Source of the DNA: Maricaulis sp.
GTDB lineage: Bacteria > Pseudomonadota > Alphaproteobacteria > Caulobacterales > Maricaulaceae
DNA length: 53,259 nucleotides
Assembly: GCF_017642925.1 (NCBI RefSeq)
Contig: NZ_JAEPOL010000025.1
Coordinates: 1 to 53,259 of the forward strand
Direction: 5' to 3'
The notes beneath the pieces are model-generated. The model worked only from the letters and a program-made list of their open reading frames with translations, was not told where the DNA came from and made no database searches. Positions 5,343-27,602 of this stretch are shown piece after piece. Position 1 is the stretch's first letter; every line of letters starts with the position of its first letter. A program made the position numbers and the translations under genes.

Positions 5343-5360
5343 CCGTCAAACAAGTGTCAT
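5343..5360 (+). promoter_or_regulatory. Candidate PhoB box upstream of lipoprotein gene (distal)
   Basis: CCGTCAA, four bases, then GTGTCAT: two direct half sites 11 bp apart. Against the CTGTCAT half-site consensus they match 5 and 6 of 7 positions. It lies about 270 bp before the lipoprotein ATG, in the AT-richer part of the gap. A chance match is possible. Confidence 0.45.
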
Positions 5361-5524
5361 ACTGCGGATTGTCGCAAAAATTTCAATTTCGAATTCTTCC
5401 GATGTGGCGGAATTGCCACCGGCGCGAAATCCCTTGCATGGCCAGCATCTAGTGGGTGCCGGCGCGGTAAATCCCCACCCTTGGTGATGATGCGGTTCCG
5501 GTCTGCGGGCGCCGTCGCCGCGAT

Positions 5525-5542
5525 CTGTCATTCAGCCGTTAC
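5525..5542 (+). promoter_or_regulatory. Candidate PhoB box upstream of lipoprotein gene (proximal)
   Basis: A perfect half site CTGTCAT (5525-5531), four bases, then a weaker CCGTTAC (4 of 7). It is about 90 bp before the ATG of the lipoprotein gene. The first half is exact and the second degenerate, so this is weaker than the sites before phnC and the 41.2-kb receptor. Confidence 0.4.
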
Positions 5543-5630
5543 AATGCTGATGTTTATCCCCGGCCCAAGCGGCTGGGCCGGATACGCCGGTGCCACCGTG
5601 GTCGAGATTCATTCCTCTTGGGGGTCTTCC

Positions 5631-8474: not shown

Positions 8475-8484
8475 CGCAGACGCC

Positions 8485-8518: not shown

Positions 8519-8540
8519 AGCATCGTTTAATCGCAGTCTC

Positions 8541-11222
8541 ATGGTGATGAAGATGCAAACTACACGATATGCGCTCTCGGCTGCGTTGCTGGCGTCAACC
8601 ACGCTGGTTCCGGTCGCCGCTTTTGCGCAGGACGCTCCGTCCTCCGAAGCCGAAGACGTCATCACGGTCCGCTTCCAGTACATTCCGGATGACCGCCGCG
8701 TCACCTCGGAAGTGTCGGCGGCCCTGTCGATCGACGACCTTGAAACCACCGGCGATAGCGACTTGGCTGCGGCCCTGGTCCGCGTCACCGGCCTGTCGAC
8801 CACGGGCGGCAAGTTTGTCGTCGTCCGCGGCCTCAACGAACGCTACTCCAACACGCTCCTGAACGGCTCTCCGATGCCGTCTCCGGAGCCTTTCCGTCGC
8901 GCGGCGCCGCTCGACATCTTCCCGACCAATGTTCTCTCGAACGTGCTGGTCCAGAAGACCTTCTCCCCGGAATTCCCGGGCGAGTTCGGTGGCGGCGTGA
9001 TCGGTGTCGAAACGGCAACCCTGCCGGATGACCGCTTCCTCACCATCGGTGTGGGCGGCAGCTTCGACACGGTGACGACGGGCAATAACGGCCTGACCTA
9101 TGACGGTTCCGACACGGACTGGCTGGGTTATGACGACGGCCTGCGCGATCTGCCGGCCGAACTGGCCGAGATCTTCAACACGACCCGCGTCGGCAACAAC
9201 CTGCCGGCCGCGCAGCAGCAGGCCATCGGCCGCTCGCTGGTCAATTCGGAACTCTGGGTGCTCCAGACCGTCGATACGGACGCCAATGGCTCCATCGACT
9301 TCAGCGCCGGCGACCGTTTCGATTTCGACGGTTTCTCCCTCGGCCTCACCGCCGCCGGCTCCTACTCGAACGAGTGGGTGACGCGCGAAGGTATCCGTGG
9401 CCGTGGCGGTGTTGACGGCACGTCCGCCCGCTACATCAACGGTCCGGCCAATGACGACTTCTCCGACGTCGCCGCGCCGGAAGATGCCTCCGACAACTAT
9501 ATGGGCACCGAGAACGTCATCGACGTGTCCGGCATGCTGTCGGTCGGCATCGACTGGTACAATGACCACGAGATCAACTTCCTGACGATGGCCCTGCGCT
9601 CGACGTCCAAGGAAGCCCGGACCCAGACCGAGTTCAACGCGGGTGGCAACGGCGTCTTCCTGACCGACAGCCTGGAATGGTTCGAACGTCAGGTGCTGTT
9701 CAACCAGCTGTCCGGCGAGCACGTCTTCTCCTTCCTGGGCGATCTCGCCCTGGACTGGCGGATCTCGGACGCGACCGCCACGCGCGACGCGCCGTACCAG
9801 CGCGAATACCGCTACGAGTATTCCGGTGCGGGCCTGCAGTATGGCGGCAATGTTGCCGACAACCGCACGTCCTTTTCGGAAATCGAGGACAACACCCAGG
9901 ATGCAGGCTTCGATCTTGCCCTGCCGCTGACGGTGTTCGATCGCGATGTCGAGCTGAAAGCCGGTATGTCGGTGACCAGCCGCGAGCGTGAAGCCTACAC
10001 CCGGACCTTCTCCTTCGAGCAGGGTGGTGTGGGTCTGCCGTCCGATCTGCGCTTCAGCCGGATCGACTACATCTTCGCCCCGCAGAACATCGTCGACGAG
10101 CGTCTGCGCCTGGTGGAGACCGGCGGTCTGTCCTTCCCGGAAGCCTATGAAGGCCGGATGAATGTCCGCGCCTACTATGCCGGTGCCGATATCGCGGTGA
10201 ACGATTTCGTTCGCGCTGCGGTGGGTGCCCGCTTCGAAGACGGCGTCCAGAAGGTCGACACGTTCGCTTTCCCGGTTAATGCCGGCGACAGCGGCCTGCT
10301 GGAAACGCGGATCGAGGAAGACTACGTCCTGCCGGCGGTGACGCTGACCTGGACCTTCGCCGACAATCTGCAGCTGCGCACCGGCTATTCCCAGTCGATC
10401 GCCCGGCCGCAGTTCCGCGAACTGGCCTTCGCCGAATTCTTCAACACCGATACCGACCAGCGTTTCCAGGGCAACCCGTATCTCGTGAACACCGAGATCG
10501 AGTCCTACGATGCGCGTCTGGAATACTATTTCGGCCGCGAGGAATTCGTGACCGTCGGCGTGTTCCACAAGATCCTGGAAAACCCGATCGAGGAGTACAT
10601 CCTGCCGACGGGCGACAGCCTGGGCACCTCCTTCATCAATGCGCCTGAAGCGACCCTGACCGGTGCGGAATTCGAGTTCGAGAAAGTCTTCGATCTCTCC
10701 AACCGCTTCGATCGTCCGTTCTTCAATGACCGCGAATGGTTCATCAAGACGAACTACACCTACATCCAGTCGGAAGTGTCGGCTGACGGTACGGTGACGA
10801 TCGCCCAGGGTGCCTTCGGCCAGCCGTCTGCGAACGTGCTGGACGCGGCGGGCTTCATCGATGACGGCCGGGCCCTTCAGGGCCAGTCGGAACACCTGTT
10901 CAACGTCCAGCTCGGCTTCGAAACCTTCGATGGCCGGGCACGCGGCGCCCTGCTCTTCAACTACACCGGAGAGCGCACCCGGGCCGTGGCCGATCTGAAC
11001 ACCGGCAATCCGGCGATCATCGAGCAGGTCCCGAACTCGCTTGACCTGGTCTACAGCCGCACGCTCGATCTGCGCGGCAATGACTGGGATTTCGGGTTCT
11101 CGATCCGCAACATCCTTGGCGACGATTACGAAGCCACCCAGTCCGCGGGCGGGGTCGAACTGCCGGTCGACACCTATGATGTCGGCACGGAGTTCGCGAT
11201 CTCCATCAGCCGCAGCTGGTAA
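8541..11222 (+). CDS. TonB-dependent outer membrane receptor
   Basis: An 893-residue TonB-dependent receptor. The N-terminal signal peptide ends near AAFAQ. A TonB-box-like segment (DVITVR) follows, then a plug domain with VRGLNERYSNTLLNG and RAAPLDIFPTNVL, and a 22-strand-type barrel rich in alternating aromatic segments, ending ISRSW with a terminal aromatic residue as outer membrane barrels need. Three in-frame ATGs (8541, 8547, 8553) crowd the start and no clear ribosome binding site separates them; translational coupling to the lipoprotein gene 66 bp upstream is possible. The lipoprotein-receptor order recalls SusD/SusC-type pairs, but the lipoprotein is not SusD-like. The ligand is unknown; the PhoB-like sites upstream hint at a phosphorus compound. 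Confidence 0.92.
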   Translation: MVMKMQTTRYALSAALLASTTLVPVAAFAQDAPSSEAEDVITVRFQYIPDDRRVTSEVSAALSIDDLETTGDSDLAAALVRVTGLSTTGGKFVVVRGLNERYSNTLLNGSPMPSPEPFRRAAPLDIFPTNVLSNVLVQKTFSPEFPGEFGGGVIGVETATLPDDRFLTIGVGGSFDTVTTGNNGLTYDGSDTDWLGYDDGLRDLPAELAEIFNTTRVGNNLPAAQQQAIGRSLVNSELWVLQTVDTDANGSIDFSAGDRFDFDGFSLGLTAAGSYSNEWVTREGIRGRGGVDGTSARYINGPANDDFSDVAAPEDASDNYMGTENVIDVSGMLSVGIDWYNDHEINFLTMALRSTSKEARTQTEFNAGGNGVFLTDSLEWFERQVLFNQLSGEHVFSFLGDLALDWRISDATATRDAPYQREYRYEYSGAGLQYGGNVADNRTSFSEIEDNTQDAGFDLALPLTVFDRDVELKAGMSVTSREREAYTRTFSFEQGGVGLPSDLRFSRIDYIFAPQNIVDERLRLVETGGLSFPEAYEGRMNVRAYYAGADIAVNDFVRAAVGARFEDGVQKVDTFAFPVNAGDSGLLETRIEEDYVLPAVTLTWTFADNLQLRTGYSQSIARPQFRELAFAEFFNTDTDQRFQGNPYLVNTEIESYDARLEYYFGREEFVTVGVFHKILENPIEEYILPTGDSLGTSFINAPEATLTGAEFEFEKVFDLSNRFDRPFFNDREWFIKTNYTYIQSEVSADGTVTIAQGAFGQPSANVLDAAGFIDDGRALQGQSEHLFNVQLGFETFDGRARGALLFNYTGERTRAVADLNTGNPAIIEQVPNSLDLVYSRTLDLRGNDWDFGFSIRNILGDDYEATQSAGGVELPVDTYDVGTEFAISISRSW

Positions 11223-11234
11223 CACGCATTCGGG

Positions 11235-11258
11235 CGGGCGGACCTTCGGGTCCGCCCG
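11235..11258 (+). terminator. Terminator hairpin after the receptor gene
   Basis: CGGGCGGACC pairs perfectly with GGTCCGCCCG across a TTCG tetraloop, 13 bp past the receptor stop. No long T-run follows. It separates the receptor transcript from the secretion operon. Confidence 0.8.
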
Positions 11259-11287
11259 TCTGCATTCATCCGACGATTAATCCCGAA

Positions 11288-11415: not shown

Positions 11416-12246
11416 GTGACGCATCAGTCGCAATCACTGCCGGCCGGACGGGGAGGGCGAACGCGCCTTCCGCGCAGTCTCGCGACCGTGCTCGCCCTGG
11501 CCGAACTCCTCCTGCTCGCCGGCCTGACCTATATCGCCGCGCGCCTGATCTGGCTCATCGCCTTCGGCGCCAGCGCGACCGATTTCCAGCAGGATCCGGC
11601 GGATGCCGGCCCGCGGTTCGGCGGCGCTCCGTCCTACCAGGCCGACCTCACGCAACTGGCTGAGACCGACCTGTTCGCTGACCGGCGTGCCGGGCCTGTC
11701 GATGCGGCGCCCGTTGCGGCGGCGATCCAGGAAACCAGCCTCGATCTCACCCTGCGCGGCATCCGCCGCGGCGCGACGCCGGACAGCGGTGGCGCCATCA
11801 TCCAGATCCCCGGTGGCCGCCAGAGCTTCTTTGCCGTGGGTGCGGAAGTCCTCGATGGCGTGACGCTGGAAGAGGTGCATGTCGACCATGTGCTGATCCG
11901 CCGCCGCGGCATCGCCGAATCGCTCTTCCTGCGCGACGAGGACACGCCGCGCGCGGCTGCGGCGCCCGCCGCCGCTGGCGGCCAGTCCGTCGCGGGCCTG
12001 TTCCGCGCCGAGCCGGTGCGCGAGGGCAATCGCCTCACCGGCTATCGCGTCAGCGAGGCCAGCCCGGCCCTCCTGTCGGCAACCGGCCTGCGCAATGGCG
12101 ATGTGATCCTGGCGGTGGATGGCCGTCCCGCCACCGATATTTCCGATCTTCCCGCTCTCTTCCGCCGTCTGCGCGAAGAGGACGGTTTCACCCTGTCGAT
12201 CAATCGGGGCGGCCTGCCCCTGACCCTTCAAGTGGACCTGCCGTGA
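11416..12246 (+). CDS. gspC: Type II secretion system inner membrane protein GspC
   Basis: GspC links the inner membrane platform of the type II secretion system to the outer membrane secretin. The 276-residue product has a short cytoplasmic N-terminus, one membrane segment at about residues 22-50, a periplasmic homology region (about 85-180, containing ETDLFADR and LRGI as in GspC HR domains), and a C-terminal PDZ domain (about 190-275, GLRNGDVILAVDGRPATD). The start is a GTG at 11416; the next in-frame GTG falls inside the membrane segment. The stop overlaps the start of gspD. First gene of a run of twelve gsp genes without internal gaps. Confidence 0.9.
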   Translation: MTHQSQSLPAGRGGRTRLPRSLATVLALAELLLLAGLTYIAARLIWLIAFGASATDFQQDPADAGPRFGGAPSYQADLTQLAETDLFADRRAGPVDAAPVAAAIQETSLDLTLRGIRRGATPDSGGAIIQIPGGRQSFFAVGAEVLDGVTLEEVHVDHVLIRRRGIAESLFLRDEDTPRAAAAPAAAGGQSVAGLFRAEPVREGNRLTGYRVSEASPALLSATGLRNGDVILAVDGRPATDISDLPALFRRLREEDGFTLSINRGGLPLTLQVDLP

Positions 12247-14204
12247 TGACCGATTTCGTGAACCGACTGATTGCGGGCCTCCTGGCGCTCGTCCTGTCTG
12301 CGATGGCACCGGCTGCCGTCTCGGCCCAGTCCGGCGGCCAAGGCAGCGTGGTCAATTTCAACCAGGCCGAAATCCAGGCCGTGATCGACGATGTATCGTC
12401 GGTGACCGGCTATACCTTCATCGTCGATCCCAATGTGCGCGGCCGGGTGACCATCACCTCGCAGGCGCCGCTGACGCCGGACCAGTATTTCCAGGTCTTC
12501 CTGTCGACCATGCGGGTGCATGGCTTTGCCGTCGTGCCGACCGCTTCGGGCGCCTACCAGATCATTCCCGAACAGGCCGGTGCGCGCACCTCCAGCCCGG
12601 TCAATTCCAACCTGCGCGGCGACCAGTATGTCACTGCCGTGGTGCGCCTGACCCATGCGGGCACCCGGGATGCGCTGACGGTCGTGCGGCCGATGGTCAG
12701 CCCGAACGGTTTCGTCAATGCGGCCGAGGGCGGCAATGCGCTGGTCATCGTCGACTATGCCGAGAATGTCGCGCGTATCCGCCAGGTCCTGCGTGACCTG
12801 GATCGCGACACTTCGGTGGTCGAGATGGTCGAACTGTCGAATGTGTCGGCCGGCGAGATGGCGCGCATCATCGAGACCATCCGCACCCGCAACACGTCCG
12901 GCGAAGACGATATGGCGTTCGGCGTCACCGTGGCGCCGATCCCGGCCTCCAACACGGTCGTGCTGCGCGGCAATCGTGACGCCGTGGCCGAGATGATGTC
13001 GCTGATCCGGCGGGTGGATGGCGTCAGCCGGTCCAACCAGGGCTTCCGGGTGATCTATCTCAGCCATGCCGACGGCGAGGACCTGCTGCCCATCCTGCAG
13101 CAGGTGGTCGAGACCATGGCCGATGACGAGACCATGGCCCGGCGTCCGTCCGTCTCCTATCACGCGCCGACCAATGCCGTGGTCGTCAACGCCGATCCCG
13201 ACATCCAGCGCGAGCTGGAACTGGTGATCCGCCAGCTCGACATCCGCCGTCCGCAAGTGCTGGTCGAGGGCATCGTGGTCGAGATGTCCGACACGGTTGC
13301 CGACGAGCTGGGCGTGCAGATGCTGCTGGCCGGCGGCGAGGGCGATGCGCCCCTGGCGATGACCCGCTTCGGGTCGAATACGCCGGATCTTCTGGCCCTG
13401 ACCGGGGCGATCACTTCGCCCGGCGATGACGACAGCGACTTCAATGACGATCTGCGCCAGGCGGCCCTCAACTCGCTGCTCGGCGCCACGGGCGGCACGA
13501 TCGGTTTCGGCGGACAGAATGGTGACGGCACGCTCTTCGGCCTGGTGCTGAACGCGGTGGAGAGCGACCGCAATTCCAACGTCCTGGCGACGCCGTCCAT
13601 CCTGGCGATGGACAATGAGGAAGCCTCCTTCCTGTCCGGCCAGGAAATCCCCGTCACCACCGGTGAAGTGCTGGGCGACGACAATTCCAACCCGTTCCGC
13701 ACGGTGCAGCGCCAGGAAGTCGGCGTGCGCCTGCATGTGCGCCCGCAGATCACCGAGGGCAATACGATACGCCTGCTGATCGAGCAGGAAGTTTCCTCGG
13801 TCGCGGGCACTGTCAATGACGACACGACCGACCTGATCACCAACAAGCGTGAGATTCAGACGACGGTGCTGGCCGATAATGGCGAGATCATCGTGCTGGG
13901 CGGGCTGATCCAGCAGGAAGACGAGGATTCGGTGACCGGTGTGCCGGGCCTGTCCCGCGTGCCGGGCGTGGGCCGTCTGTTCCGGTCCGAGGGCACCGAG
14001 CGCCGCCGCACCAATCTCATGGTCTTCATCCGCCCGACCATCATCCGCGACGAGGCCGACATGCGTGCGGTGACCGACAATCGCTACGGCTATATCCGCG
14101 GCCAGCAGATCGCCAACGATCCGCAGGGTGCGAGTTCGCTGGAATCCATCGTCGAGATGATGATGATCGACATGCCGCGGGGCAGCGCCGACGATGGCGA
14201 GTGA
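12246..14204 (+). CDS. gspD: Type II secretion system secretin GspD
   Basis: GspD forms the outer membrane channel. The 652 residues comprise a signal peptide ending SAQSG near residue 29, an N0 domain (about 34-110, VVNFNQAEIQAVIDDVS), N1-N3 ring domains (about 125-335) and the secretin core (about 440-600) with the signature VPGLSRVPGVGRLF at 566-579. Length is normal for the family. No obvious extended S-domain follows the core, so pilotin targeting, if any, would have to differ from that in enterobacteria. ATG at 12246 is chosen; a GTG lies one codon upstream. The last bases overlap gspE. Confidence 0.95.
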   Translation: MTDFVNRLIAGLLALVLSAMAPAAVSAQSGGQGSVVNFNQAEIQAVIDDVSSVTGYTFIVDPNVRGRVTITSQAPLTPDQYFQVFLSTMRVHGFAVVPTASGAYQIIPEQAGARTSSPVNSNLRGDQYVTAVVRLTHAGTRDALTVVRPMVSPNGFVNAAEGGNALVIVDYAENVARIRQVLRDLDRDTSVVEMVELSNVSAGEMARIIETIRTRNTSGEDDMAFGVTVAPIPASNTVVLRGNRDAVAEMMSLIRRVDGVSRSNQGFRVIYLSHADGEDLLPILQQVVETMADDETMARRPSVSYHAPTNAVVVNADPDIQRELELVIRQLDIRRPQVLVEGIVVEMSDTVADELGVQMLLAGGEGDAPLAMTRFGSNTPDLLALTGAITSPGDDDSDFNDDLRQAALNSLLGATGGTIGFGGQNGDGTLFGLVLNAVESDRNSNVLATPSILAMDNEEASFLSGQEIPVTTGEVLGDDNSNPFRTVQRQEVGVRLHVRPQITEGNTIRLLIEQEVSSVAGTVNDDTTDLITNKREIQTTVLADNGEIIVLGGLIQQEDEDSVTGVPGLSRVPGVGRLFRSEGTERRRTNLMVFIRPTIIRDEADMRAVTDNRYGYIRGQQIANDPQGASSLESIVEMMMIDMPRGSADDGE

Positions 14205-16936: not shown

Positions 16937-16946
16937 GGAGATTTCG

Positions 16947-17920: not shown

Positions 17921-17923
17921 TCC

Positions 17924-18295
17924 ATGCGCGCGCCGGTCTCCAGTCCTGAAAGCGGGTTCACGCTGATCGAGATGATGATGGCGCTCGCCGTCCTCTCGGT
18001 AGCGGGGCTCGCCCTGATGAACATGACCCAGGCGACGACGCGCAACACCGCCGCCGTCCAGGAGCGGGCGCTGGCAATGGTGGCGGCCGAGAACATTCTG
18101 AACAGCCAGATCCTGCGCCCCGGCCCGCCGCAATCCGGTTCGGGCGAATATGCGATTGCCGGGGTGGGTTATGACTGGTCGCTGGCGGTCAGCGCGACCG
18201 ACGATGCCGGTCTCGTCCGGCTGCACCTGGAAGTGCGCGAGGCGCAGAGCGGGCATCTCGGCGCCGAGCTCGACACGTTCCGGAGGGCGCAATGA
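17924..18295 (+). CDS. gspI: Type II secretion system minor pseudopilin GspI
   Basis: Minor pseudopilin of 123 residues, one of the tip proteins with GspJ and GspK. Prepilin site ESG|FTLIEMM with Glu at mature position 5 (residue 16). ALAMVAAENIL is the GspI-typical segment after the helix. The stop overlaps the gspJ start (ATGA). Confidence 0.92.
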   Translation: MRAPVSSPESGFTLIEMMMALAVLSVAGLALMNMTQATTRNTAAVQERALAMVAAENILNSQILRPGPPQSGSGEYAIAGVGYDWSLAVSATDDAGLVRLHLEVREAQSGHLGAELDTFRRAQ

Positions 18296-18942
18296 GCGCG
18301 GCCGCACCGGCGCGCGAGGCCGGCTTCTCCCTCGTCGAGATCCTCGTCTCGGTTTTCGTCTTCGCGATCATCGGCACGATCTCGGTCGCGCTGATGGCGT
18401 CGAGCGTGGGCGCGCGGGAAATCAATTCGGACGTGCTCGAGCGGACCGCGATGATCGACCGTGCCCGCACCCTCCTGCGCGAGGATCTGGGACAGATCGC
18501 CCGCCGCGCCGTTCGCGACGAGGCCGGCTATCGCGACCCCTGGATCCTGGCCGGCGCGGCGACCGGGCTGGCCGACTACGAGACCGATGCGACAGAGCGG
18601 GTGCTGATGGTGTTTACCCGGCATGGCCGCGCCAATCCGGGCCTGATACGGCCGCGCAGCTCGCTGCTTCATGTCACCTATCTGATACGCGGCGGCGATC
18701 TCGTTCGCCGGGTGCGCGACTATCCCGACCCCGGCGAAGCGACCCGGATCACCGACCAGGTGCTGATCGCGGGCGGCGAGGATTTCACGATCGAGTTTCT
18801 CGTCGGCGCGGTCTGGCAGAACCGGGTCTTCCTGTCGCAGACCGGCCAGGGCGTGATGCCGGCGGCCGTGCGCCTGCGCTACGATCTGCCGCCGCTGGGG
18901 GCGATGGAGCATGTGCTTCTGACACCGGAGGCGCAGCCATGA
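18292..18942 (+). CDS. gspJ: Type II secretion system minor pseudopilin GspJ
   Basis: Minor pseudopilin of 216 residues. Prepilin site REAG-less form EA-G|FSLVEIL, cleavage after Gly11, Glu at residue 16. The larger globular domain carries DRARTLLREDLGQIARR and a C-terminal strand region (VRLRYDLPPLG), as expected for GspJ. Overlaps gspI and gspK by 4 bp each. Confidence 0.92.
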   Translation: MSAAAPAREAGFSLVEILVSVFVFAIIGTISVALMASSVGAREINSDVLERTAMIDRARTLLREDLGQIARRAVRDEAGYRDPWILAGAATGLADYETDATERVLMVFTRHGRANPGLIRPRSSLLHVTYLIRGGDLVRRVRDYPDPGEATRITDQVLIAGGEDFTIEFLVGAVWQNRVFLSQTGQGVMPAAVRLRYDLPPLGAMEHVLLTPEAQP

Positions 18943-19925
18943 GCCGGCCGGTTCTCGACAGCCATCGCGAGCGCGGCGCCTCGCTGGTTTCGGCCTTGCT
19001 GCTGGTGGCGGTGATGGCCAGCCTCGCCATGGCGCTGGCCGGCGATCTGCGCTTTGCCATGCGCCGGTCGGCCAATATGGATGTGCGCGACCAGGCCTAC
19101 TGGTATGCGATCGGCGCGCGCGAGTTCACCGAAGGCCTGATCGCGCGGGCGATGGACGATCCGCGCCGGGCCCTGCGGCCGGACGCTGACTGGCTGAACG
19201 GACCGCGCACTTTCCCGATCGAGCAGGGCGTGTTGACGGGCCGGGTGCGCGACGGAAACAATTGTTTCAACCTCAACAGCCTGGCGCCGGCCGGTGCATC
19301 GGGCGAGCGGCAGGCCGATACTGCCCGGATACAGCGTTTCGAACAGCTGATGCGCGCCGTGGATATCCCGGCTGCCCGTGCGGTGCGGATCGCCGCGCAG
19401 GCGGCCGACTGGATCGACAGCGATATACGCCCGGTCGCTTCGGGCGGCGAGGACGAGCTTTATCCGGGTTATCGCACTGCCAATGCGCCGATGGCCGAGC
19501 GGGCCGAGCTGCTGGCGTTGGAAGCGATAACACCGGACATCTATGAGCGCCTGCGCCCGCTGGTCTGCGTGCGACCGACCGGCGAAGCCCTGGCGCTCAA
19601 TATCAACACACTGACCGCCGCGCAGTGGCCGCTGCTCGCAGTGGCCTTCGATGGCGGGCTGTCGCGTTCGGCCATCGAGGGCCTGCTTCTGAACCGGCCG
19701 GCCTCGGGGTTCGAAACGGAAGAGGCGTTCTGGGCGCTGGACACGGTGCGCGAGCTCGATCCGGACGCCACGGTGCGCGAACGCGTCGGCATCGAGACCC
19801 GCTATTTCGAGATCGAGATCCACGTCGCCCATGCCGGCCAGCGCTTTGCGCTGAACGGTCTGGTGCAGAGTCTGGGAGGCGGGCAGGTGCGCCGTCTCTC
19901 GCAGAACTACGGAAGCGTTTCATGA
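18939..19925 (+). CDS. gspK: Type II secretion system tip pseudopilin GspK
   Basis: Tip pseudopilin of 328 residues, the largest of the set. The N-terminus reads ERG|ASLVSALLLV; mature position 5 is Ser rather than Glu, the normal exception in GspK. Family motifs include YAIGAREF, NCFNLNSL and, in the C-terminal part, LNINTLTAAQWPLLA, which belongs to the helical T2SSK domain. The ATG at 18939 overlaps the gspJ stop; a longer open frame extends upstream but is out of place there. The C-terminal stop overlaps gspL by 4 bp. Confidence 0.94.
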   Translation: MSRPVLDSHRERGASLVSALLLVAVMASLAMALAGDLRFAMRRSANMDVRDQAYWYAIGAREFTEGLIARAMDDPRRALRPDADWLNGPRTFPIEQGVLTGRVRDGNNCFNLNSLAPAGASGERQADTARIQRFEQLMRAVDIPAARAVRIAAQAADWIDSDIRPVASGGEDELYPGYRTANAPMAERAELLALEAITPDIYERLRPLVCVRPTGEALALNINTLTAAQWPLLAVAFDGGLSRSAIEGLLLNRPASGFETEEAFWALDTVRELDPDATVRERVGIETRYFEIEIHVAHAGQRFALNGLVQSLGGGQVRRLSQNYGSVS

Positions 19926-21142
19926 GCCAGGACCTGATCCTCAGGCTGGACGGGCAGGACAGGCTGCACTGGTCCATCATCGACCGCGCCGGCCAGGTGC
20001 GCCGCGCGTCCGGTGCCGCCGGACCCGGCGAGCTGCTGGACCTGCCGGACACACACGGCGTCAGCCGGACCCTGATCCTGGTGCCGTCGGAAGATATCTT
20101 TCTCGGCCTGATCGATCTGCCCGCGCGCGGTGAGCGCGAGGCCCGCCAGGCGGCGCCCTACATGATTGAGGAGGCGCTCGCCTCATCGCTCGCCGCGACC
20201 GAGATCGTGCCCGGTGCCCGCGCCGAGGATGGCCGCCGCTGGGTGATGGCGGCAGATCGCGATCGCGTGGCGCAATGGGCGACACGGATCGGCGACGCGA
20301 TCGTTCGCCCGGCCTGGGTGATGCCCGACTGCATCGCCGCTGCCGAGCGCGATGTGGCGCTGACCCTGTTCGACCGCGGCGACAGCATTCTCTGGCTCTA
20401 TGGCGCCGATACCCGCAAGCCCGGTGAGGCGGCCGGCGGTGCCATGGATCCCAAACTCTTCGGTCCGGTGATCGGTCCGCTGATCGAGGGGGCGGGCGGC
20501 GGCACGGTGGCCGTTTCGGCTTCGCTCGGCCTGGCGGGCGAGAATTTCCGCCAGGTGCCGCGCGGCGATCTCGATCTCAAGGCCAGCGCCCTGCCGGCCG
20601 AATTTATTGCGGCGCTGCCGCCGCTGCTGGGTGATCGGCTGAAGGCGACGATCGACTGGCGCGGCCTGCTGGGACCGATCCGCAGACCGGTGGCGCTGGC
20701 GGCGGGTCTGCTGGTGGCTTTCTGTGCGCTCATGGCGGGCGAGGGCGTCTACTACCGCCTGCAGGCCGAGCGTTTCGATGCGGCGAGTATCGCCGAGTTC
20801 CGCGCCGCGGTGCCGGACGTGACCCGTCGGGTTATTCCGGCCGAGGCCGAGCGCCTGCTGGCGGCGCGCCTGTCCGGTCTCGGCGGCGGGGAGGCCTCGT
20901 CCTACCTGCAGCTGATGGCGGCACTGGGTGAGCTGACTTCGGGCAATGAGCGGGTGCGGATCGATGATGTGCGGTTCGACCAGGCCCGGTCCGAACTGTC
21001 TGTCTCGGCGATCTATAGCGATTTTGCCGATTTCGATGCGCTCAACGCCCGCGCCGGCACGCTGGGTATTGCGCTGGAGGATGGCGGTGCGCGCGAGAGC
21101 GGCCAGGCCATCCAGGGCGAGTTTACGGTGAGGCTGCGATGA
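19922..21142 (+). CDS. gspL: Type II secretion system protein GspL
   Basis: Bitopic inner membrane protein of 406 residues that recruits GspE. It has an actin-like cytoplasmic domain (about 1-245, VPSEDIFLGLIDLPARGEREARQAAPYMIEE), one membrane span at about 255-273 and a periplasmic ferredoxin-like domain. The ATG at 19922 overlaps the gspK stop, and an in-frame extension to 19625 is just gspK read in another frame. Overlaps gspM by 4 bp. Confidence 0.93.
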   Translation: MSQDLILRLDGQDRLHWSIIDRAGQVRRASGAAGPGELLDLPDTHGVSRTLILVPSEDIFLGLIDLPARGEREARQAAPYMIEEALASSLAATEIVPGARAEDGRRWVMAADRDRVAQWATRIGDAIVRPAWVMPDCIAAAERDVALTLFDRGDSILWLYGADTRKPGEAAGGAMDPKLFGPVIGPLIEGAGGGTVAVSASLGLAGENFRQVPRGDLDLKASALPAEFIAALPPLLGDRLKATIDWRGLLGPIRRPVALAAGLLVAFCALMAGEGVYYRLQAERFDAASIAEFRAAVPDVTRRVIPAEAERLLAARLSGLGGGEASSYLQLMAALGELTSGNERVRIDDVRFDQARSELSVSAIYSDFADFDALNARAGTLGIALEDGGARESGQAIQGEFTVRLR

Positions 21143-21642
21143 ATGCTGTGACCCGCATGTTCGAACAGGTCTGGGGCGGCCGCAGCCTGCGCGAGCAGGT
21201 CCTGCTCGGGGTCGCCGGCGGCCTGGTCCTGGTGCTGGCGGTCAGCGTGCTGGTCGTGCAGCCGCTGATCGGCTTCAACGATCGTGCCCGCGACGATTAT
21301 GCCGCGGCGATGCGGCTCTACCGTTCGATCCAGGACGATGCCCGCACCTATCGCCAGCTGGCAGCGCAAACGCGTGAAGAGGCCGATACCGGCCGCTCGC
21401 TGCGGGCTGTGGCCGGGGCGACGGCCCTGCGTCACGAGATTTCACTGGCGCGCATGGTCCCGGCGGACGACGGCTCGCTGACCGTGAATATCGACCGCGC
21501 CGACAGCCGCGCCGTGATGGCCTGGCTGGTCGAGCTGGAGACGGGCTTCGGCATCCAGGTGGCCTCCTCCACAATGGACCGGGCGGGTGAAGGCGTTGTT
21601 GAGGCATCCTTCGTTCTGCGCCGTCAGGGAGGCGGCCGATGA
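21139..21642 (+). CDS. gspM: Type II secretion system protein GspM
   Basis: Inner membrane partner of GspL, 167 residues. One membrane span at about 19-42 (VLLGVAGGLVLVLAVSVLVV) is followed by a small periplasmic domain. The pattern SLREQVLL at the beginning and the position between gspL and gspN support the call. Overlaps both neighbours by 4 bp. Confidence 0.92.
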   Translation: MNAVTRMFEQVWGGRSLREQVLLGVAGGLVLVLAVSVLVVQPLIGFNDRARDDYAAAMRLYRSIQDDARTYRQLAAQTREEADTGRSLRAVAGATALRHEISLARMVPADDGSLTVNIDRADSRAVMAWLVELETGFGIQVASSTMDRAGEGVVEASFVLRRQGGGR

Positions 21643-22373
21643 TCGGGCGCATTCTCCTTGTGCTGGCGCTGCTGGCGGTCTGGCTGGTCGTGCTCTTGCC
21701 GCTGAAGGCTGTGGCGATTGCCGCCGGTGGCGTTGCGCAGTTGGGCTATGACGATGTGTTCGGCACGGTCTGGAACGGGCGCGTCTATGGTCTGCGTCTC
21801 GGTGGCGAGCGCATTCGCGAAACGGCCGTGTCCGTGTCGCCGCTGGCGTTCCTGACCGGACGCGTAGCCGTGGACTGGCGCTTGGCGGACAGTGGTCTGT
21901 CCGGCGACGGGCATGCGATCCTCGCGCCGGGCCGGGTACAGCTGGAAAACGTGTCGCTGACCGTGCCGCTGGGCCGTCTGACGGAGACGGGCGGCACCGG
22001 GCTGGACCCGCGTGCGCCGGTCTTCGTCCGTGTCGCTCAGCTCGACCTGTTGGACGGGCGTTGCGAAAGCGCCACCGGTTCGGCGCGCTCGGATGCGCTG
22101 ACGGCGCTCGCTGCGCCTTACAATATCGAGGCGCCGGCCCTGGACGGCGTGCTCGCCTGCAATGGCGACGATCTCGAACTCGTCTTTTCCGGCGAAAGTG
22201 CCGACATGACGGTCGAGGGCAGCGCCCGGCTTCGCGTCGAGGGCTATGACTGGCAGGTCTCGGTCGATACGGTGCGTCCGGAACTGGCCGAGGCGCTGGC
22301 GCTGGCCGGTTTCGAGGCCGAAGGCGAAATCTGGCAGGCACAGGGACGGGGAGTTTATGGTGCGAACCGCTGA
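21639..22373 (+). CDS. gspN: Type II secretion system protein GspN
   Basis: Accessory inner membrane protein of 244 residues. An N-terminal membrane span (ILLVLALLAVWLVVLLPL) is followed by a periplasmic region with the GspN pattern VFGTVWNGRVYGL. GspN is present in only some T2SS clusters and its role is poorly defined. It ends inside the start of the following lipoprotein gene (17-bp overlap). Confidence 0.88.
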   Translation: MIGRILLVLALLAVWLVVLLPLKAVAIAAGGVAQLGYDDVFGTVWNGRVYGLRLGGERIRETAVSVSPLAFLTGRVAVDWRLADSGLSGDGHAILAPGRVQLENVSLTVPLGRLTETGGTGLDPRAPVFVRVAQLDLLDGRCESATGSARSDALTALAAPYNIEAPALDGVLACNGDDLELVFSGESADMTVEGSARLRVEGYDWQVSVDTVRPELAEALALAGFEAEGEIWQAQGRGVYGANR

Positions 22374-22890
22374 CGGACTTCTTCTTCTTCTCGCGGCCGG
22401 GCTGGTCCTGTCAGCCTGCACGGCGACGGCTGGCAGCGCTTCCACGCAATTGCAGAGGCCGCCGGCGCTGAGCCAGGCCCGCCCGGATCCGGCTCCGGCG
22501 GCGGCCGTTGAAACGGCCGGCGCGCTGCCGCCGCAAACGCTGGAAGCCGGTGCCTGTGCCACCTTCTTCTGGACTGCAGATCCGGCGCATCGCTTTGTCG
22601 CTTTCGAAAACGAGACCGAGGGCTTTGCCCGCGTCTACGCCAATGGCGCCGAGCATGGTTTCTATACGCCGCCGCGCGAGGCGCCCTATGTGGCAGGCGA
22701 GACCTATCGGCGCGATTATGTCGATCCGGCCCGCGGGCTGGACATCCGCCTCACCGGCCGGGTCGGCGAGCCCTTGCCGACAGGCCAGCGGATCGAGCGG
22801 GTTGTGATGCGGGTGCTGCAGCCGAACGGCCAGACCCGCGTCGTGCCGCTGATCGGGCATTATGCCTGCCGGACGGTGGCGGAGGGGTGA
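22357..22890 (+). CDS. Small lipoprotein at the end of the gsp operon
   Basis: A 177-residue protein that I do not recognise. The ATG at 22357, inside the end of gspN, gives a signal sequence with lipobox LVLSAC (Cys20). A Pro/Ala-rich linker is followed by a compact domain with three further Cys (CATFFW, HYAC and surrounding) and a C-terminal segment on the pattern VLQPNGQTRVVPLIGHYACR. It is translationally coupled to gspN, so it is probably made with the secretion machinery. A pilotin-like or periplasmic accessory role is possible, but sequence gives no direct support. Confidence 0.75.
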   Translation: MVRTADGLLLLLAAGLVLSACTATAGSASTQLQRPPALSQARPDPAPAAAVETAGALPPQTLEAGACATFFWTADPAHRFVAFENETEGFARVYANGAEHGFYTPPREAPYVAGETYRRDYVDPARGLDIRLTGRVGEPLPTGQRIERVVMRVLQPNGQTRVVPLIGHYACRTVAEG

Positions 22891-23090: not shown

Positions 23091-23573
23091 TCACAGCACC
23101 GGATAAAGGCCCGGCCCGTAGGCGCGGTAGATCCAGCCGGCGGCAATCCCCACAGCCAGCCAGGGACCGAAGGCGAAGGCTTCGTCGCGTCCCGGCAGGC
23201 GCCGCTGCACAAGCGCTTTGCCCAGCACAAACAGGAGCGCGCTGCCCGTGCCCACCAGGACAATGGCGGGCAGGAGCCAGCCGCCGCACCAGGCGCCGCC
23301 CGCCGCGATCAGCTTGGCATCGCCGCGGCCCAGCCCGTTGCGGCCGGTCAGCCGGCGGAAGCCGGTCTCGACGGCGACAAAGGCGAGATAGCCTGCGACG
23401 GCCCCGATCAGTGACACCCACGGCGTGGAAAACACGAACGCGTTGAGTGCCAGGCCGGCTGCAATCAGCGGCAATGTTATTGCGTCGGGCAGGCGGTATG
23501 TACGAAAGTCGATCCAGAACAGGGCGCTAAGCGCAATGATGAGAATCAGGGTTGCGGCGTGGGTGAGAAACAT
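23091..23573 (-). CDS. Prepilin peptidase, short form (A24 family)
   Basis: Aspartic prepilin peptidase of 160 residues that would cleave the GspG-K leaders. The two active Asp residues are visible: Asp22 in [11 protein letters not shown] and Asp85 in GRGDAK, the GxGD motif. Several hydrophobic spans fill the rest. The zinc-binding N-terminal methylase domain of full-length GspO/PilD (about 100 extra residues) is absent, as in CpaA/TadV-type enzymes. Adjacency to the gsp operon suggests T2SS use, but a Tad-pilus role cannot be ruled out. It is divergent from phnC with a PhoB-like box in the 69-bp gap. Confidence 0.9.
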
Positions 23574-23580
23574 GCTGCTC

Positions 23581-23598
23581 CTGTCACAAAAGTGTCAT
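23581..23598 (+). promoter_or_regulatory. PhoB box between prepilin peptidase and phnC
   Basis: CTGTCAC, AAAA, GTGTCAT: two direct half sites 11 bp apart, each matching 6 of 7 bases of CTGTCAT, with an A-tract spacer as in classical Pho boxes. It lies 45 bp before the phnC ATG and only 7 bp before the start codon of the divergent peptidase. The best-formed single Pho box in the window. Confidence 0.75.
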
Positions 23599-23642: not shown

Positions 23643-24437
23643 ATGACAGACGCCGTGCCGGCGCTCAAAGCCGAAAATGTCCGTATGACATTCGGCGAGA
23701 CCCGAGCGCTCGACGATGTCAGCCTTGCGGTTGAACCAGGTGAAATGGTGGCTCTGATCGGGCCGTCCGGATCGGGCAAGTCCACCCTCCTGCGCGTGGC
23801 AGCCGCGCTGCAACCGGCGGACAGCACGTCCGGGCCGGTTGCCGTGCTGGGCCAGACGATGCAGTCGCGCGGCAAGATTGCCTCGCGTGTCCGCAAGAAC
23901 CGTGCGCGGCTGGGCTTCATCTTCCAGCAGTTCAATCTGGTCGGGCGCCTGTCGCTGTTCGGCAATGTCATGCTGGGTGCTCTCGGCCGCCTGCCGGTCT
24001 GGCGCGGCGCGCTGGGGATGTTCCCCAATTCGGTCAAGCAGGCCGCCATGGACGCGCTGGAGCGTGTCGGCATGGAAGAGTTTGCAGCCCGGCGTGCGTC
24101 CAACCTGTCCGGCGGCCAGCAACAGCGCGGCGCGATTGCCCGCGCGCTGGTGCAGGGTGCCGAGGTCCTGTTTGCCGACGAGCCGATTGCCTCGCTCGAC
24201 CCGGTCTCCGCACGCAAGGTCATGGAATTGCTGCGCGAGCTGAACCAGAGCGACGGCCTGACCGTCGTCGTGACGCTGCACCAGGTCGACTATGCCCAGC
24301 GCTATTGCGACCGCACAGTTGCGCTCAACAAGGGCCGGATTGTCTATGACGGCCCGTCCAATGGCCTCGATCGGGAGAAGCTGATCGAGATCTATGGTCC
24401 CGAGTTCGAAACCGCCTTCTATGGAGGCGAGGAATGA
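23643..24437 (+). CDS. phnC: Phosphonate/phosphate ABC transporter ATP-binding protein PhnC
   Basis: ATPase subunit of a PhnCDE-type importer for phosphonates, phosphite or phosphate. In the 264 residues, Walker A is GPSGSGKS (40-47), the Q-loop follows, the ABC signature is LSGGQQQRG and Walker B is EVLFADEP. The ATG at 23643 begins the family-like [18 protein letters not shown]; an upstream in-frame start lies before the Pho box region and is not favoured. The gene overlaps the phnDE fusion by 4 bp and is probably induced by phosphate limitation through the box just upstream. Confidence 0.92.
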
Positions 24438-26446
24438 TCCGCGCGCTCTGCCAGATCCTCGTCCGGATCACGCTTGTCAGCCTCGTTCTGGGCCTGTCGG
24501 CCTGTTCCGCTCCGCAGGCCGGACCGGATGCAGCGTCCGGTGCCGACCCGGAAAGCGGCGAACGGCGCACGCTGAATTTCGGCATTATCGCCACGGAAAG
24601 CTCGTCCAACCTGGAATCCAACTGGCGCCCCTTCATCGCCGCGATGGAAGAATGGACCGGCTATGACGTCGAGCCCTTCTACGCCTCCGACTATGCCGGC
24701 ATGATCCAGGCCATGCGCTATGGCTCGATCCAGGTGGCGTGGTTCTCCAACTTCTCCGGTCTGCAGGCTGTGCGCCTGGGCGGCGGCCAGGTCTTTGCCA
24801 AGGCGACCTATCCGGACGGTTCGGAAGGCTATAACTCGGTGCTCATCGTGCCGGTCGACAGTCCGATCCAGTCGGTCGAAGACGTGCTGTCCTGTGACAG
24901 ATCGATCGATTTCGGCATGGGCGACCCGAATTCCACCTCCGGCTATCTTGTGCCGTCGGCCTTCATCTTCGCGCCGCGCGGTATCGATCCGGGCGAGTGT
25001 TTCAACTCGGTGCGCAACGCCAATCACGAAGCCAATGCGCTCGCTGTGGCGAACGGTCTGGTCGATGTGGCGACCAACAACACGACCAATATGACCCTGC
25101 TGGCGCGGACGCGTCCGGATATCGCCAGCCGTATCCGCGTCGTGTGGACCTCGCCGGCGATCCAGACCGACCCGATCATCTGGCGTGCGGACCTGGACGA
25201 GGAAGCCAAGCAGCGCCTGCAATACTTCTTCATGAATTACGGCCGCATGGGCACGCCGGAAGAGATCGCCGCTGCCCGCGACGTGCTGAACCCGCTCTAT
25301 TTCGGTCTCTTCCTGCCGTCCTCGAACGCCCACCTCGATCCCATCGTCCAGCTGGAGATCGTGCGCGACCTGACCGAGGCACGGAATGATCCGGACCTGA
25401 CCGAGGCGGAGCGGGAAGCGCGGGTGGCCGAGCTTGAACAGCGCCTAGCCGAAGTCGAAGCCGGCAATACCGGCCTGATCAGCCAGGCGAGCGCTGTGGA
25501 TGGTCTCGCGGCGGCCGGCCCGGCCGAGGCGGCTGCCGGCTCGCAGATCAACTGGATAGCTTCCGGCGTGATACTGGTGCTCGTTGTGGTGCTGCTGACC
25601 CTCCTACTGTGGGCCTCTGCGCCACGCGGCCCCGGTCCGCGTGTGCCGCTGACCGAACGCGTCGCCAATGCCGTGATCGCGGCCGGTGTGGTGATCATCC
25701 TCGTCTGGAGCTTCGACAGCGCCGACATGGACCGGTCCTACCTGCTGGTCGAGAATGCCGGCGATATGGGCGAGTTCATTGCCGGCTTCTTCCCGGAAGA
25801 TCTTTCGCCGGCCTCGCGCGCCAGCTACTGGCAGAACCTGACCCATGGCTTCAGCGAAGCCGTGCCGCAGATGATCATCACCGTGCAGATCGCGATCTGG
25901 GGCACATTCATCGCCGTCTTCGCCGCGATCCCGTTCGGCCTGCTGTCGGCCCGCAATGTGGCGCCGGCCTGGATCGTCCAACCGGTCCGCCGGCTTATGG
26001 ATGTGTTCCGCTCGATCAACGAACTGATCATTGCGCTGGTCTTCATCGCCGCCGTCGGCCTCGGACCTCTGGCCGGTGTGATGGCGCTTGCCGTGCACAC
26101 GACCGGTGTGCTGGCCAAACTGTTCTCGGAGGCCGTCGAGGCTGTCGATGACGGTCCGGTCGAGGGCGTGCGGGCGACCGGTGCCGTGCCGCTGCACGAG
26201 GTGATCTGGGCGGTGATTCCCCAAGTCGCGCCGCTGTGGACTTCCTTCGGTCTCTACCGGTTCGAGTCGAATGCGCGCTCGGCAACGGTGCTGGGCCTGA
26301 TCGGCGCCGGCGGTATCGGCCAGATCCTGTTCGAAGCCGTCCGCGCCTTCGACTACCAGCGCACCGCCGCCATCGTCATTGTCATCGTCATCGCCGTCAG
26401 CGCCATCGACCTCTTGTCGCAATTGCTGCGCAAGCGCCTGGTCTAG
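24434..26446 (+). CDS. Fused PhnD-PhnE: substrate-binding lipoprotein plus permease
   Basis: A single 670-residue frame joins two normally separate subunits. Residues 1-24 are a lipoprotein-type signal with lipobox LSAC (Cys24). Residues about 45-310 are a PhnD-type binding domain ([40 protein letters not shown]). A charged helical linker follows (about 315-345), then a span at 373-396, another at about 410-427, and the PhnE permease core (about 470-665) with the EAA-type loop [21 protein letters not shown]. No frameshift or start signal is seen at the junction, so the fusion is read through. If the signal is cleaved and Cys24 lipidated, the binding domain is held at the inner membrane surface next to its own permease. 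Substrate (phosphate, phosphite or phosphonate) is open; no C-P lyase genes lie nearby, which favours phosphate or phosphite. Confidence 0.88.
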
Positions 26447-26540
26447 CCGGACGGTGCCCGCTCATCGGATAGGACTTGGTTTCGTCCCAATTCGGCGCTA
26501 GGCGAAACCGCGAAAAGCCAACTACGGGGGACCCCCACCC

Positions 26541-27602
26541 ATGTCAGCGTTCAACAAACTCACCGCGGCGCTCCTGGCGGCCGCTGTCGGCACGGCCGGC
26601 GCCTATGCCATCCAGCAGCGCGAGCAGATCCGCATCGTCGGTTCCTCCACGGTCTTCCCTTTCTCCACGGCGGTGGCCGAGAGCTTCGGCGCCAAGACCC
26701 AGTTCTCCACGCCGGTGGTCGAGTCGACCGGCTCGGGCGGCGGGTTCCGCCTGTTCTGCGCCGGTGTCGGTGCCGAGCATCCGGACATCGTGAACTCCTC
26801 GCGCCGCATGCATGCCTCCGAGTTCGAGCGCTGCCAGAACAATGGCGTGCGCGAGATCACCGAAGTGCGGATCGGCTATGACGGTATCGTCATGGGTTCG
26901 GCCAATGACGAGGTTGCCGATCTCGACCTGACGCTGACCCAGCTCTGGCTGGCGCTGGCGGCCGAGGTGCCGGCCGACGACACCTGCTCGTCCTTTGTTG
27001 CCAATCCGAACGAGCGCTGGTCGGACATCGACCCGTCCCTGCCGCGTCAGCGGATCGAGGTGTTCGGCCCGCCGCCGACCTCGGGCACGCGCGACGCCTT
27101 CGTGGAACTGGCCATGCAGGCCGGTGCCGCCGGCATCGATTGCATGTCGGACCTCGCCGATGCCGATCACGACCGCTTTGAAACCATTGCCGGCCGGATC
27201 CGCGAAGACGGCCGCTGGATCGATGCGGGCGAGAATGACAACGCGATCGTCCAGACGCTGGTCAACACGCCCGACGCGTTCGGTGTGTTCGGCTATTCCT
27301 TCCTCGACCAGAATTACGACCGTCTCTACGGCGTGACGATCGACGGCGTGGCGCCGGAATTCGACGCGATCTCCGACGGCACCTATCCGGTCTCCCGTTC
27401 TCTCTTCTTCTATGTGAAGAACCAGCACGCCGCGATCGTGCCGGGCCTGGCCGACTATGTCGCCGAGTTCACTTCGGACGCCGCCTGGGGCGAATTCGGC
27501 TATCTGACCGATCGCGGCCTGATCCCGCTCGCGGATGCTGACCGCGACGCGATCGCCAACCAGGCGCAATCGCTGGAAGCGATGACGCAGGCGCCGGAAT
27601 AG
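26541..27602 (+). CDS. PstS-family phosphate-binding protein
   Basis: Periplasmic phosphate-binding protein of 353 residues. A signal-like N-terminus (LTAALLAAAVGTAGAYA) is followed by IRIVGSSTVFPFS and ESTGSGGGF, the phosphate-contacting loops of the PstS fold. SGTRDAFVE supplies the third loop. No pstC, pstA or pstB gene follows; a strong terminator comes immediately after. It lies 94 bp behind the phnDE fusion on the same strand and may be cotranscribed or have its own promoter in that gap, which contains a GGTTTCG/CGAAACC hairpin (26478-26509). It may feed a Pst transporter encoded elsewhere, or act as a phosphate scavenger. Confidence 0.88.
   Translation: MSAFNKLTAALLAAAVGTAGAYAIQQREQIRIVGSSTVFPFSTAVAESFGAKTQFSTPVVESTGSGGGFRLFCAGVGAEHPDIVNSSRRMHASEFERCQNNGVREITEVRIGYDGIVMGSANDEVADLDLTLTQLWLALAAEVPADDTCSSFVANPNERWSDIDPSLPRQRIEVFGPPPTSGTRDAFVELAMQAGAAGIDCMSDLADADHDRFETIAGRIREDGRWIDAGENDNAIVQTLVNTPDAFGVFGYSFLDQNYDRLYGVTIDGVAPEFDAISDGTYPVSRSLFFYVKNQHAAIVPGLADYVAEFTSDAAWGEFGYLTDRGLIPLADADRDAIANQAQSLEAMTQAPE

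Follow-up and report, generated by a model that had tools for sequence, protein, structure and literature searches.

The window analyzed here, a 53-kb stretch of DNA from Maricaulis sp., a marine bacterium related to Caulobacter, includes, in the region under study (5343..27602), an elpS-like lipoprotein gene followed by genes for a TonB-dependent receptor (TBDR), a type II secretion system (T2SS), a PhnCDE-type importer and a PstS-like phosphate-binding protein (Table 1). All the components listed in the first-pass annotation, that is, the elpS-like lipoprotein, TBDR, gspC-N, gspO, phnC, the fused phnD-phnE and, at the end of the region, the PstS-like gene, are present; all but the lipoprotein were identified by Pfam and NCBIfam searches (E-values up to 0.001). 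The T2SS set, C to N plus the prepilin peptidase O, is complete: between the two repeats where that annotation had placed a full gsp operon, each of GspC to GspN was detected, with GspO on the minus strand. The small lipoprotein LpX, whose gene closes the gsp operon, has no Pfam match when read from 22363.

Table 1. Genes and sequence elements of the region, with one Pho-box array outside it
Feature	Position	Strand	Evidence and remarks
Distal Pho-box-like repeat before elpS	5343..5360	+	17.2 bits; G049 and G068 have a counterpart at the same distance
Proximal Pho-box-like repeat before elpS	5525..5542	+	15.8 bits; in G054, G113, G123, G093 and G088, a counterpart lies 98 to 116 bp upstream of elpS
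elpS-like lipoprotein, two tandem domains, 947 aa	5631..8474	+	Signal and lipobox-like FAAC read from sequence; repeats 71.7% identical
TBDR partner	8541..11222	+	PF00593 E 5.2e-23, PF07715 E 3.4e-8
Terminator-like GC-rich 14-bp hairpin just behind TBDR stop	11231..11262	+	Comparable hairpin in 9/9 Maricaulis, own included
gspC	11416..12246	+	PF11356 E 1.3e-24
gspD secretin	12243..14204	+	PF00263, PF03958, PF21305
gspE	14194..15711	+	PF00437 E 7.2e-150
gspF (approximate start)	15716..16936	+	PF00482 E 3.3e-59
gspG, gspH, gspI, gspJ pseudopilins	16929..18942	+	PF08334, PF12019, PF02501, PF11612
gspK, gspL (approximate start), gspM, gspN	18939..22373	+	PF21687/PF03934, PF12693/PF05134, PF04612, PF01203
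lpX, small uncharacterized lipoprotein	22357..22890	+	HMM: 41 matching ORFs in 114 loci
gspO prepilin peptidase	23091..23573	-	PF01478 E 3e-18
Pho box between divergent gspO and phnC	23581..23598	+	20.5 bits
phnC ATPase	23643..24437	+	TIGR02315 280.4 bits (cut-off 266.1)
phnD-phnE fusion, lipobox-like start, binding domain and permease	24434..26446	+	TIGR01097 286.5 bits (cut-off 216.7), TIGR01098 232.5 bits (cut-off 112.05)
PstS-like phosphate-binding protein	26541..27602	+	PF12849 E 4.5e-40; 9jwy E 1.3e-78; below TIGR02136 cut-off
Pho-box array before second TBDR-phoD pair, outside the studied range	41099..41137	+	18.5 bits

The ElpS-type locus and the adjacent importer

The elpS-like protein is built of two domains in tandem (aa 60-492 and 499-942; 306 of the 427 aligned residues are identical) and has no match in Pfam or NCBIfam, the best PDB match being no better than E 0.77; its homology to Caulobacter ElpS rests on relatives, for example that in Caulobacter sp. 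RHG1. The elpS-TBDR-gspC-N-gspO succession is the already published Caulobacter ElpS arrangement: in Caulobacter crescentus, elpS (cc0170) is followed by the TBDR gene cc0171, gspC-N (cc0172-0184) and a reversed gspO (PMC2996285), and the elpS-T2SS order has also been described for Hyphomonas, Sphingomonas and Xanthomonas. The Caulobacter precedent invoked in the first-pass annotation thus holds for both the kind of lipoprotein and the layout, with the elpS homolog followed by the TBDR and gspC-N genes and the reversed gspO behind them; the two loci share gene order, orientation, the lipoprotein signal, the TBDR partner and the inversion of gspO after gspN, a likeness judged via named and unnamed relatives rather than from the Caulobacter sequence itself. 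The Maricaulis protein, however, is a two-domain one of 947 aa, compared to about 50 kDa for C. crescentus ElpS, and, unlike the C. crescentus locus, the one described here has a phn-pst operon next door and two Pho-like boxes before elpS.

In the importer, PhnD and PhnE are encoded in one frame (phosphonate-binding domain at aa 49-300, PhnE at aa 409-669). Compared to the E. coli type PhnCDE, PhnC and PhnE score above the NCBIfam equivalog cut-offs and the PhnD domain is equally close to 3n5l (E 2.2e-78) and 3p7i (E 2.3e-78), the latter of which we take to be PhnD of E. coli. The differences are that the two parts are joined in a single protein and separated there by a hydrophobic stretch, as read from the sequence, that the PhnD equivalog cut-off is narrowly missed (TIGR03431, 251.3 bits against 261.1) and that PhnJ was not found in the genome. 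The search for the C-P lyase subunit PhnJ was negative at E 0.001 in all 16 genomes, with a positive E. coli control; a role of PhnCDE in feeding C-P lyase was therefore rejected, and the importer probably carries phosphate, phosphite or a phosphonate that is broken down by another route. For PhnX of the phosphonatase pathway, none of the 16 genomes passes the TIGR01422 cut-off and all 16 have weaker matches; none of the 14 control genomes passes it either. Fused PhnD-PhnE frames are present in 18 of the 150 genomes of the order and are not confined to one family, three genomes of another family having the fusion; four further fusions suggested by open-frame length (G061, G096, G131, G146) were rejected because of stops between the two parts.

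The PstS-like protein strongly matches the solved phosphate-binding protein 9jwy and differs from PstS proper in its location beside phn and its score under the family cut-off; contig C18 carries pstC and a pstA-like gene. In six Maricaulis genomes and two genomes of a sister genus (g3), a Porin_O_P gene lies between phnDE and the pstS-like gene. The OprO/OprP phosphate-selective porin (PF07396) is missing from this spot in the window, with one copy elsewhere in the genome, and was rejected as a member of the window's operon. Around gsp in 80 loci, oprP (3), phoD (4) and pstS-like genes (2) are no more common than the comparators putA (4) and gt4 (4), and hence no enrichment is claimed.

Pho-box-like sites and the control of secretion genes

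Pho boxes, taken as CTGTCAY-like 7-mers repeated at least once with an 11-bp spacing, were scored in bits with a weighted matrix derived from a consensus after two of the window sites had been viewed. The window contains five sites of at least 14 bits, compared to a mean of 0.63 (maximum 3) for 30 column-permuted matrices, and of the five, two precede elpS, one precedes phnC and one a TBDR-phoD pair. The PhoB-type 11-bp repeats that had been reported before the lipoprotein gene and phnC (the sites at 5343 and 23581) are thereby confirmed, and both are conserved in relatives. The sites at 5525 and 41099 are additional to those named in the earlier note.

A box of at least 14 bits stands upstream of elpS in 19 of the 30 loci scanned from the order (permuted matrices: mean 0.52, maximum 5), with one locus (L117) that has no safe elpS start, the match beginning at residue 86, counted as a miss, and in 18 of the 53 named loci (permuted matrices: mean 1.02, maximum 9); these locus counts are not independent because the loci are related and some are nearly identical. 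The phnC box (p 0.015 or less) is present in 10 of 14 genomes, including all seven relatives with phnC whose genus we infer to be Maricaulis and both g3 genomes, in all nine of which it sits at -60 to -65; it was not found in the two g2 genomes or in two of the three g7 genomes. Among 55 control regions upstream of seven other genes, a single one, the odc/phnC gap of L076, reached p 0.05 or less. Among the 10 homologous TBDR-phoD loci, own included, 9 have a site of at least 12 bits and all 10 have phoD downstream; in the pst control, which covered 8 loci (of 16 genomes), only 4 score 12.5 bits or higher, the own locus having 13.1. In Caulobacter sp. RHG1 (L165), no elpS box was found, even in a wider rescan, despite the known response of elpS in Caulobacter; hence either the matrix misses real cases or control differs.

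A consensus search with three mismatches allowed performs no better than chance in the window (9 sites found, 9.93 expected), and the genome-wide pattern yields 83 sites compared to 51 for the reversed pattern, which is too noisy for a regulon list to be drawn from it. Both results could be cited in favor of the boxes being chance matches, an explanation that we nevertheless consider extremely unlikely, given the conservation of position and sequence across species and the enrichment over permuted matrices. There is good reason to predict, from the boxes, that both the elpS cluster and the phn operon answer to phosphate shortage.

The gsp genes present a different picture. The region upstream of gspC lacks a scoring Pho box in the window (4.5 bits), with values of 4.3-7.2 bits across the window and six Maricaulis relatives, and the hairpin behind the TBDR gene, which was not listed by a mechanical terminator scan because it lacks a T run, is matched by a comparable one in each of the nine Maricaulis genomes, own included. 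Thus, the window does not support PhoB acting directly on the T2SS encoded here. These features, together with the constitutive expression of gsp reported for Caulobacter in 2010 (PMC2996285), would fit a T2SS that is used for polymer breakdown in general and is without a phosphate-related function in Maricaulis, with the Pho regulon limited to elpS-TBDR and phn. We regard this as rather unlikely: 17 of the 48 named loci have a site of at least 12 bits behind the TBDR gene (permuted matrices: mean 1.12, maximum 9), as does the relocated elpS-gsp cluster of G088 (15.7 bits); the T2SS is listed in the Caulobacter PhoB regulon published in 2024 (PMC11208175), and read-through beyond the hairpin may occur. 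The 2010 report of constitutive gsp and TBDR expression (PMC2996285) conflicts with the inclusion of the T2SS in the 2024 regulon (PMC11208175).

Adjacency of the elpS-gsp and phn genes

The elpS-TBDR-gsp-phnC-phnDE order was found outside this genome in six of eight Maricaulis relatives and in both g3 genomes, the latter without a gspO match between gsp and phn. Across the order, 54 genomes have both elpS and a PhnDE-type match, and the two are within 20 kb of each other in nine (the own genome, six Maricaulis and two of the sister genus). In 43 genomes, they are not found within 60 kb on one contig, a count in which draft contigs can hide adjacency; in the remaining two (G006, G075), they are 49-51 kb apart and the match is only a partial PhnE-like one. 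In the Maricaulis genome G088, gspO-phn-porin-pstS is retained and elpS-gsp is on another contig, and in all three g7 genomes elpS and phn either lie on separate contigs or are 188 kb from each other; in g2, elpS was not found.

The first-pass annotation had treated the stretch as one phosphate-scavenging region and a single system. The Pho boxes and the conserved order stand, but the phn genes have their own box, the gene sets are apart in G088 and g7, and a hairpin follows the TBDR gene. A single outside-to-inside phosphorus system, in which the T2SS, ElpS-TBDR and PhnCDE-PstS are mutually dependent, would account for the collinear genes with Pho boxes at both ends and for the order retained in close relatives; considering how often the components are separated, we find it improbable. 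The adjacency in only 9 of the 54 genomes and the separate conserved boxes point instead to a co-regulated neighborhood rather than one obligate system.

Proposed roles of the two gene sets

Judging from gene content and order, the conserved boxes and hairpin, and the separability of the parts, the region quite probably comprises two neighboring, separately promoted phosphate-starvation modules. The first would be the counterpart of the Caulobacter ElpS locus: phosphorylated PhoB would bind the boxes before elpS and switch on the two-domain, putatively surface-exposed lipoprotein and the TBDR, with the T2SS behind them probably expressed from its own promoter. Enzymes secreted through the T2SS, among which a protease has been inferred in Caulobacter, would release the lipoprotein and help to free phosphate from extracellular organic matter. 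The second module, under its own Pho box, would supply the PhnC/PhnD-PhnE importer and the PstS-like binding protein, to which most Maricaulis relatives add the phosphate-selective porin that is absent at this spot here. A literature search on Maricaulis with phosphate and type II secretion returned no paper.

Homologs of elpS are present in 115 of the 150 genomes of the order and at 55 of 80 named GspD loci. At all 55, a TBDR gene comes next, within 1.2 kb; one also follows elpS in 20 of 20 further loci, five of which lack gsp behind the pair. This association, along with the functional link between ElpS and the TBDR suggested in 2010 (PMC2996285), is compatible with a capture-and-import pair for an organophosphorus ligand, in the manner of SusD/SusC, next to a T2SS that is a general enzyme exporter. 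Such a pair is a possible, if tentative, alternative, given that release of Caulobacter ElpS requires the T2SS and deletion of cc0171 left ElpS production intact (PMC2996285), and that the lipoprotein has no match to the SusD family in Pfam.

Under the two-module reading, the conserved Pho signal extends the Caulobacter ElpS result to many aquatic and plant-associated bacteria and yields the testable claim that many such T2SS loci are phosphate-scavenging devices, with gsp under PhoB or not depending on the lineage; the inseparable core is predicted to be the elpS-TBDR pair, not the T2SS. More speculatively, and with considerable doubt on our part, ElpS-TBDR could be a general PhoB-controlled outer-membrane pair for organophosphorus capture and import whose extracellular enzyme arm is the T2SS, and would have been retained in Caulobacterales, Kordiimonadales, Sphingomonadales and Xanthomonadales; individual lineages would have gained or lost the Pho box at the gsp promoter, and the whole set would have been packed beside an inner-membrane phosphate/phosphonate importer in Maricaulis and its sister genus. 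A gene set of the ElpS-TBDR type was also seen in one of four SAR86 loci.

The elpS locus and its phn neighbourhood

The region between 5.3 and 27.6 kb of the window (contig C12; genome size 3.61 Mb) is real, well ordered and phosphate-linked, and is mostly a fresh example of the described elpS locus adjoining a second Pho operon. The lipoprotein, TonB-dependent receptor (TBDR), full gsp set of a type II secretion system (T2SS), prepilin peptidase gene gspO, phnD-phnE fusion (PhnDE) and PstS-like gene reported in the first-pass annotation were all read within this interval, where every gene except gspO lies on the plus strand. The Caulobacter ElpS precedent invoked there also holds: the elpS-TBDR-gsp-gspO layout is that of the published Caulobacter locus, with further examples in Hyphomonas, Sphingomonas and Xanthomonas, and the authors suggest that ElpS is not itself an alkaline phosphatase (PMC2996285).

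Features of the phosphate-linked region and Pho-box-like sites in the window
Feature	Position	Strand	Remark
Pho-box-like site	5343		before elpS; at least 14 bits
Pho-box-like site	5525		before elpS; at least 14 bits
Two-domain lipoprotein (elpS-like)	5631-8474	+	
TBDR	8541-11222	+	
gspC to gspN	between TBDR and lpX	+	
lpX, small lipoprotein	22357-22890	+	end of gsp operon
gspO	23091-23573	-	reversed
Pho-box-like site	23581		before phnC; at least 14 bits
phnC, phnD-phnE fusion, PstS-like gene	in series 3' of gspO, to 27.6 kb	+	
Pho-like site	34714-34731		14.6 bits; 116 bp before LpxR-like outer-membrane protein ORF (34830-35660)
Pho-box-like site	41099		before second TBDR, then phoD; at least 14 bits

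In a set of named loci anchored on GspD rather than on elpS (the best 80 of at least 584 confirmed stretches), elpS is present in 55 of the 80, and in 10 of the 25 loci lacking it the upstream DNA spans under 6.5 kb. In 55/55 of these elpS loci, a same-strand TBDR follows no more than 1.2 kb away. Among 20 further neighbourhoods that we picked across the order, one of them from Maricaulis (G088), elpS is followed by a TBDR in all 20 and by gsp genes in 15. The ElpS proteins of the 55 named loci comprise 15 two-domain forms of 887-959 aa, 39 of 434-555 aa and one that is cut. A contig end divides elpS in the Maricaulis genome G103 (L245 1-1555, L246 1-575), possibly owing to the internal duplication of the gene. 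We found no mention of the two-domain ElpS or the adjoining phn neighbourhood in the available parts of PMC2996285 and PMC11208175.

Matches to lpX number 41 ORFs in 114 loci searched, some of which overlap, with only part of the positions compared with gspN; one match lies in a locus without elpS (L160, Hyphomonas atlantica). Its position and lipobox make lpX a candidate secretin pilotin. Three Luteimonas loci (L202, L212, L215) carry a phosphate-selective porin homologue near gsp, with comparators about equally frequent in the 80 loci (best 80 of at least 584).

PhnD and PhnE share one stop-free frame in 18/150 genomes of the order: the source genome and seven other Maricaulis, two genomes each of genus g2 and the sister genus g3, and three each of g7 and g12, the latter from another family. 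The PhnDE of a relative, G068, is 88% identical to the window protein. In six Maricaulis (G049, G054, G068, G088, G113, G123) and two g3 genomes, phnDE and the pstS-like gene flank a Porin_O_P gene; none was found there in the window, and at the G093 locus neither the porin nor the pstS-like gene was found. Since 16 genomes yielded no PhnJ match and no phosphonatase over the cut-off (the latter in a search without a positive control), the candidate cargoes of the importer are phosphate, phosphite or a phosphonate handled by an unrecognised route. A pstC gene is present elsewhere in the genome.

Synteny of the two modules

The annotation treated the region as a single phosphorus acquisition system, and the adjoined order elpS-TBDR-gsp-phnC-phnDE indeed extends beyond this genome, to 6/8 Maricaulis relatives and 2/2 g3 genomes. 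However, elpS-gsp and phn-pst are two modules, separable in relatives. In G088, odc-gspO-phn-porin-pstS occupies one site and elpS-gsp a separate contig; in g7, odc is directly followed by phn (3/3), with elpS 188 kb away or on a different contig. Both an elpS match and a PhnDE-type match occur in 54 of the sampled genomes. The two lie within 20 kb of each other in nine (the source genome, six Maricaulis and two g3) and 49-51 kb apart in two more, where the PhnE-like match is partial; in the remaining 43, no contig carries them less than 60 kb apart.

The g3 genomes have dhs-odc on the far side, like the window, and no gspO match was found before phnC. G103 has the order odc-elpS-TBDR-gsp, broken in elpS at the contig end, and yielded no PhnDE match. 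No elpS was found in g2 (G004, G014); distant gsp- or pilus-like genes, with gspD-like products 23-28% identical, occur within 20 kb upstream of phnC-phnDE there (L071, L072). The phnC query matched 3/80 named loci (best 80 of at least 584), in window order in L150 (M. parjimensis) and upstream of gsp, perhaps in other ABC ATPases, in L200 and L222; these loci end near the expected phnC start and so say little about phnC absence.

Pho boxes before elpS, phnC and the second TBDR

The Pho matrix (two half-sites, 11-bp spacing) finds five sites of at least 14 bits in the 53-kb window; its 30 column-permuted versions average 0.63 such sites and never exceed 3. Because it was built from a consensus after two window sites had been seen, the main weight rests on the comparison between genomes. 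Of 30 elpS upstream regions from the order (the best 30 among 115 matching genomes), 12 bits are reached by 25 (permuted mean 1.23, maximum 10) and 14 bits by 19 (0.52, 5), the latter including 8/8 Maricaulis rows, the source genome among them and the elpS-split G103 left out. Among the 55 named elpS loci, 53 had at least 200 nt upstream, and for these the counts are 32 (2.57, 17) and 18 (1.02, 9), respectively. Relatedness among the loci, near-identity in some cases, means that the counts cannot be treated as independent trials. No box scores before elpS in L165, a Caulobacter.

Upstream of phnC, a site at p <= 0.015 occurs in 10/14 genomes (Maricaulis relatives 7/7, g3 2/2, g7 1/3, g2 0/2), and all three g7 genomes have a site before the pstS-like gene. 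Control upstream regions (phnDE, gspC, tbdr, gt4, putA, odc, dhs) reach p <= 0.05 in 1/55, the odc/phnC gap of L076; p values were derived from mononucleotide shuffles throughout, with some gene starts approximate. The 11-bp repeats that the annotation placed before the lipoprotein gene and phnC are thus borne out by window sites and counterparts in relatives. The pst operon was only a fair positive control, with 4/8 loci reaching 12.5 bits. The second TBDR with phoD behind it and an array of 11-bp-spaced Pho half-sites in front (41099-45400 in all) has a box of at least 12 bits in 9/10 homologous loci.

T2SS regulation

A strong GC hairpin immediately follows the TBDR stop in 9/9 Maricaulis; its sequence varies yet still folds, and a T run stands behind it in some. 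The window hairpin lacks the T run and is not listed by a mechanical terminator scan.

No gspC-side site scored in the window (4.5 bits) or six relatives (4.3-7.2 bits); at the relocated G088 locus, a site scores 15.7 bits. Within 350 nt downstream of the TBDR, 17 of the 48 usable named loci (those among the best 80 of at least 584 with TBDR and gspD correctly ordered and sufficient sequence) reach at least 12 bits (permuted mean 1.12, maximum 9). In a second set of 32 neighbourhoods, window included, 3 of the 27 that qualify do so, which is not clearly above the permuted control (mean 0.67, maximum 4). With gsp boxes in some lineages and none scoring in the window, direct PhoB control of gsp looks lineage-dependent. 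A score below threshold, as also seen before elpS in L165, does not prove that control is absent. We infer that this lineage dependence may bear on the 2010 description of the Caulobacter T2SS as constitutive versus its 2024 listing within the PhoB regulon (PMC2996285, PMC11208175); in the accessible parts of both papers, we found no mention of broad elpS Pho-box conservation, the hairpin or a lineage-dependent gsp box. Upstream of gspC in L066 (5148-5450), a CGTCGTAAAAC element, not a good Pho box, is repeated about 21 bp apart and is partly conserved in the gspC upstream regions of other Maricaulis.
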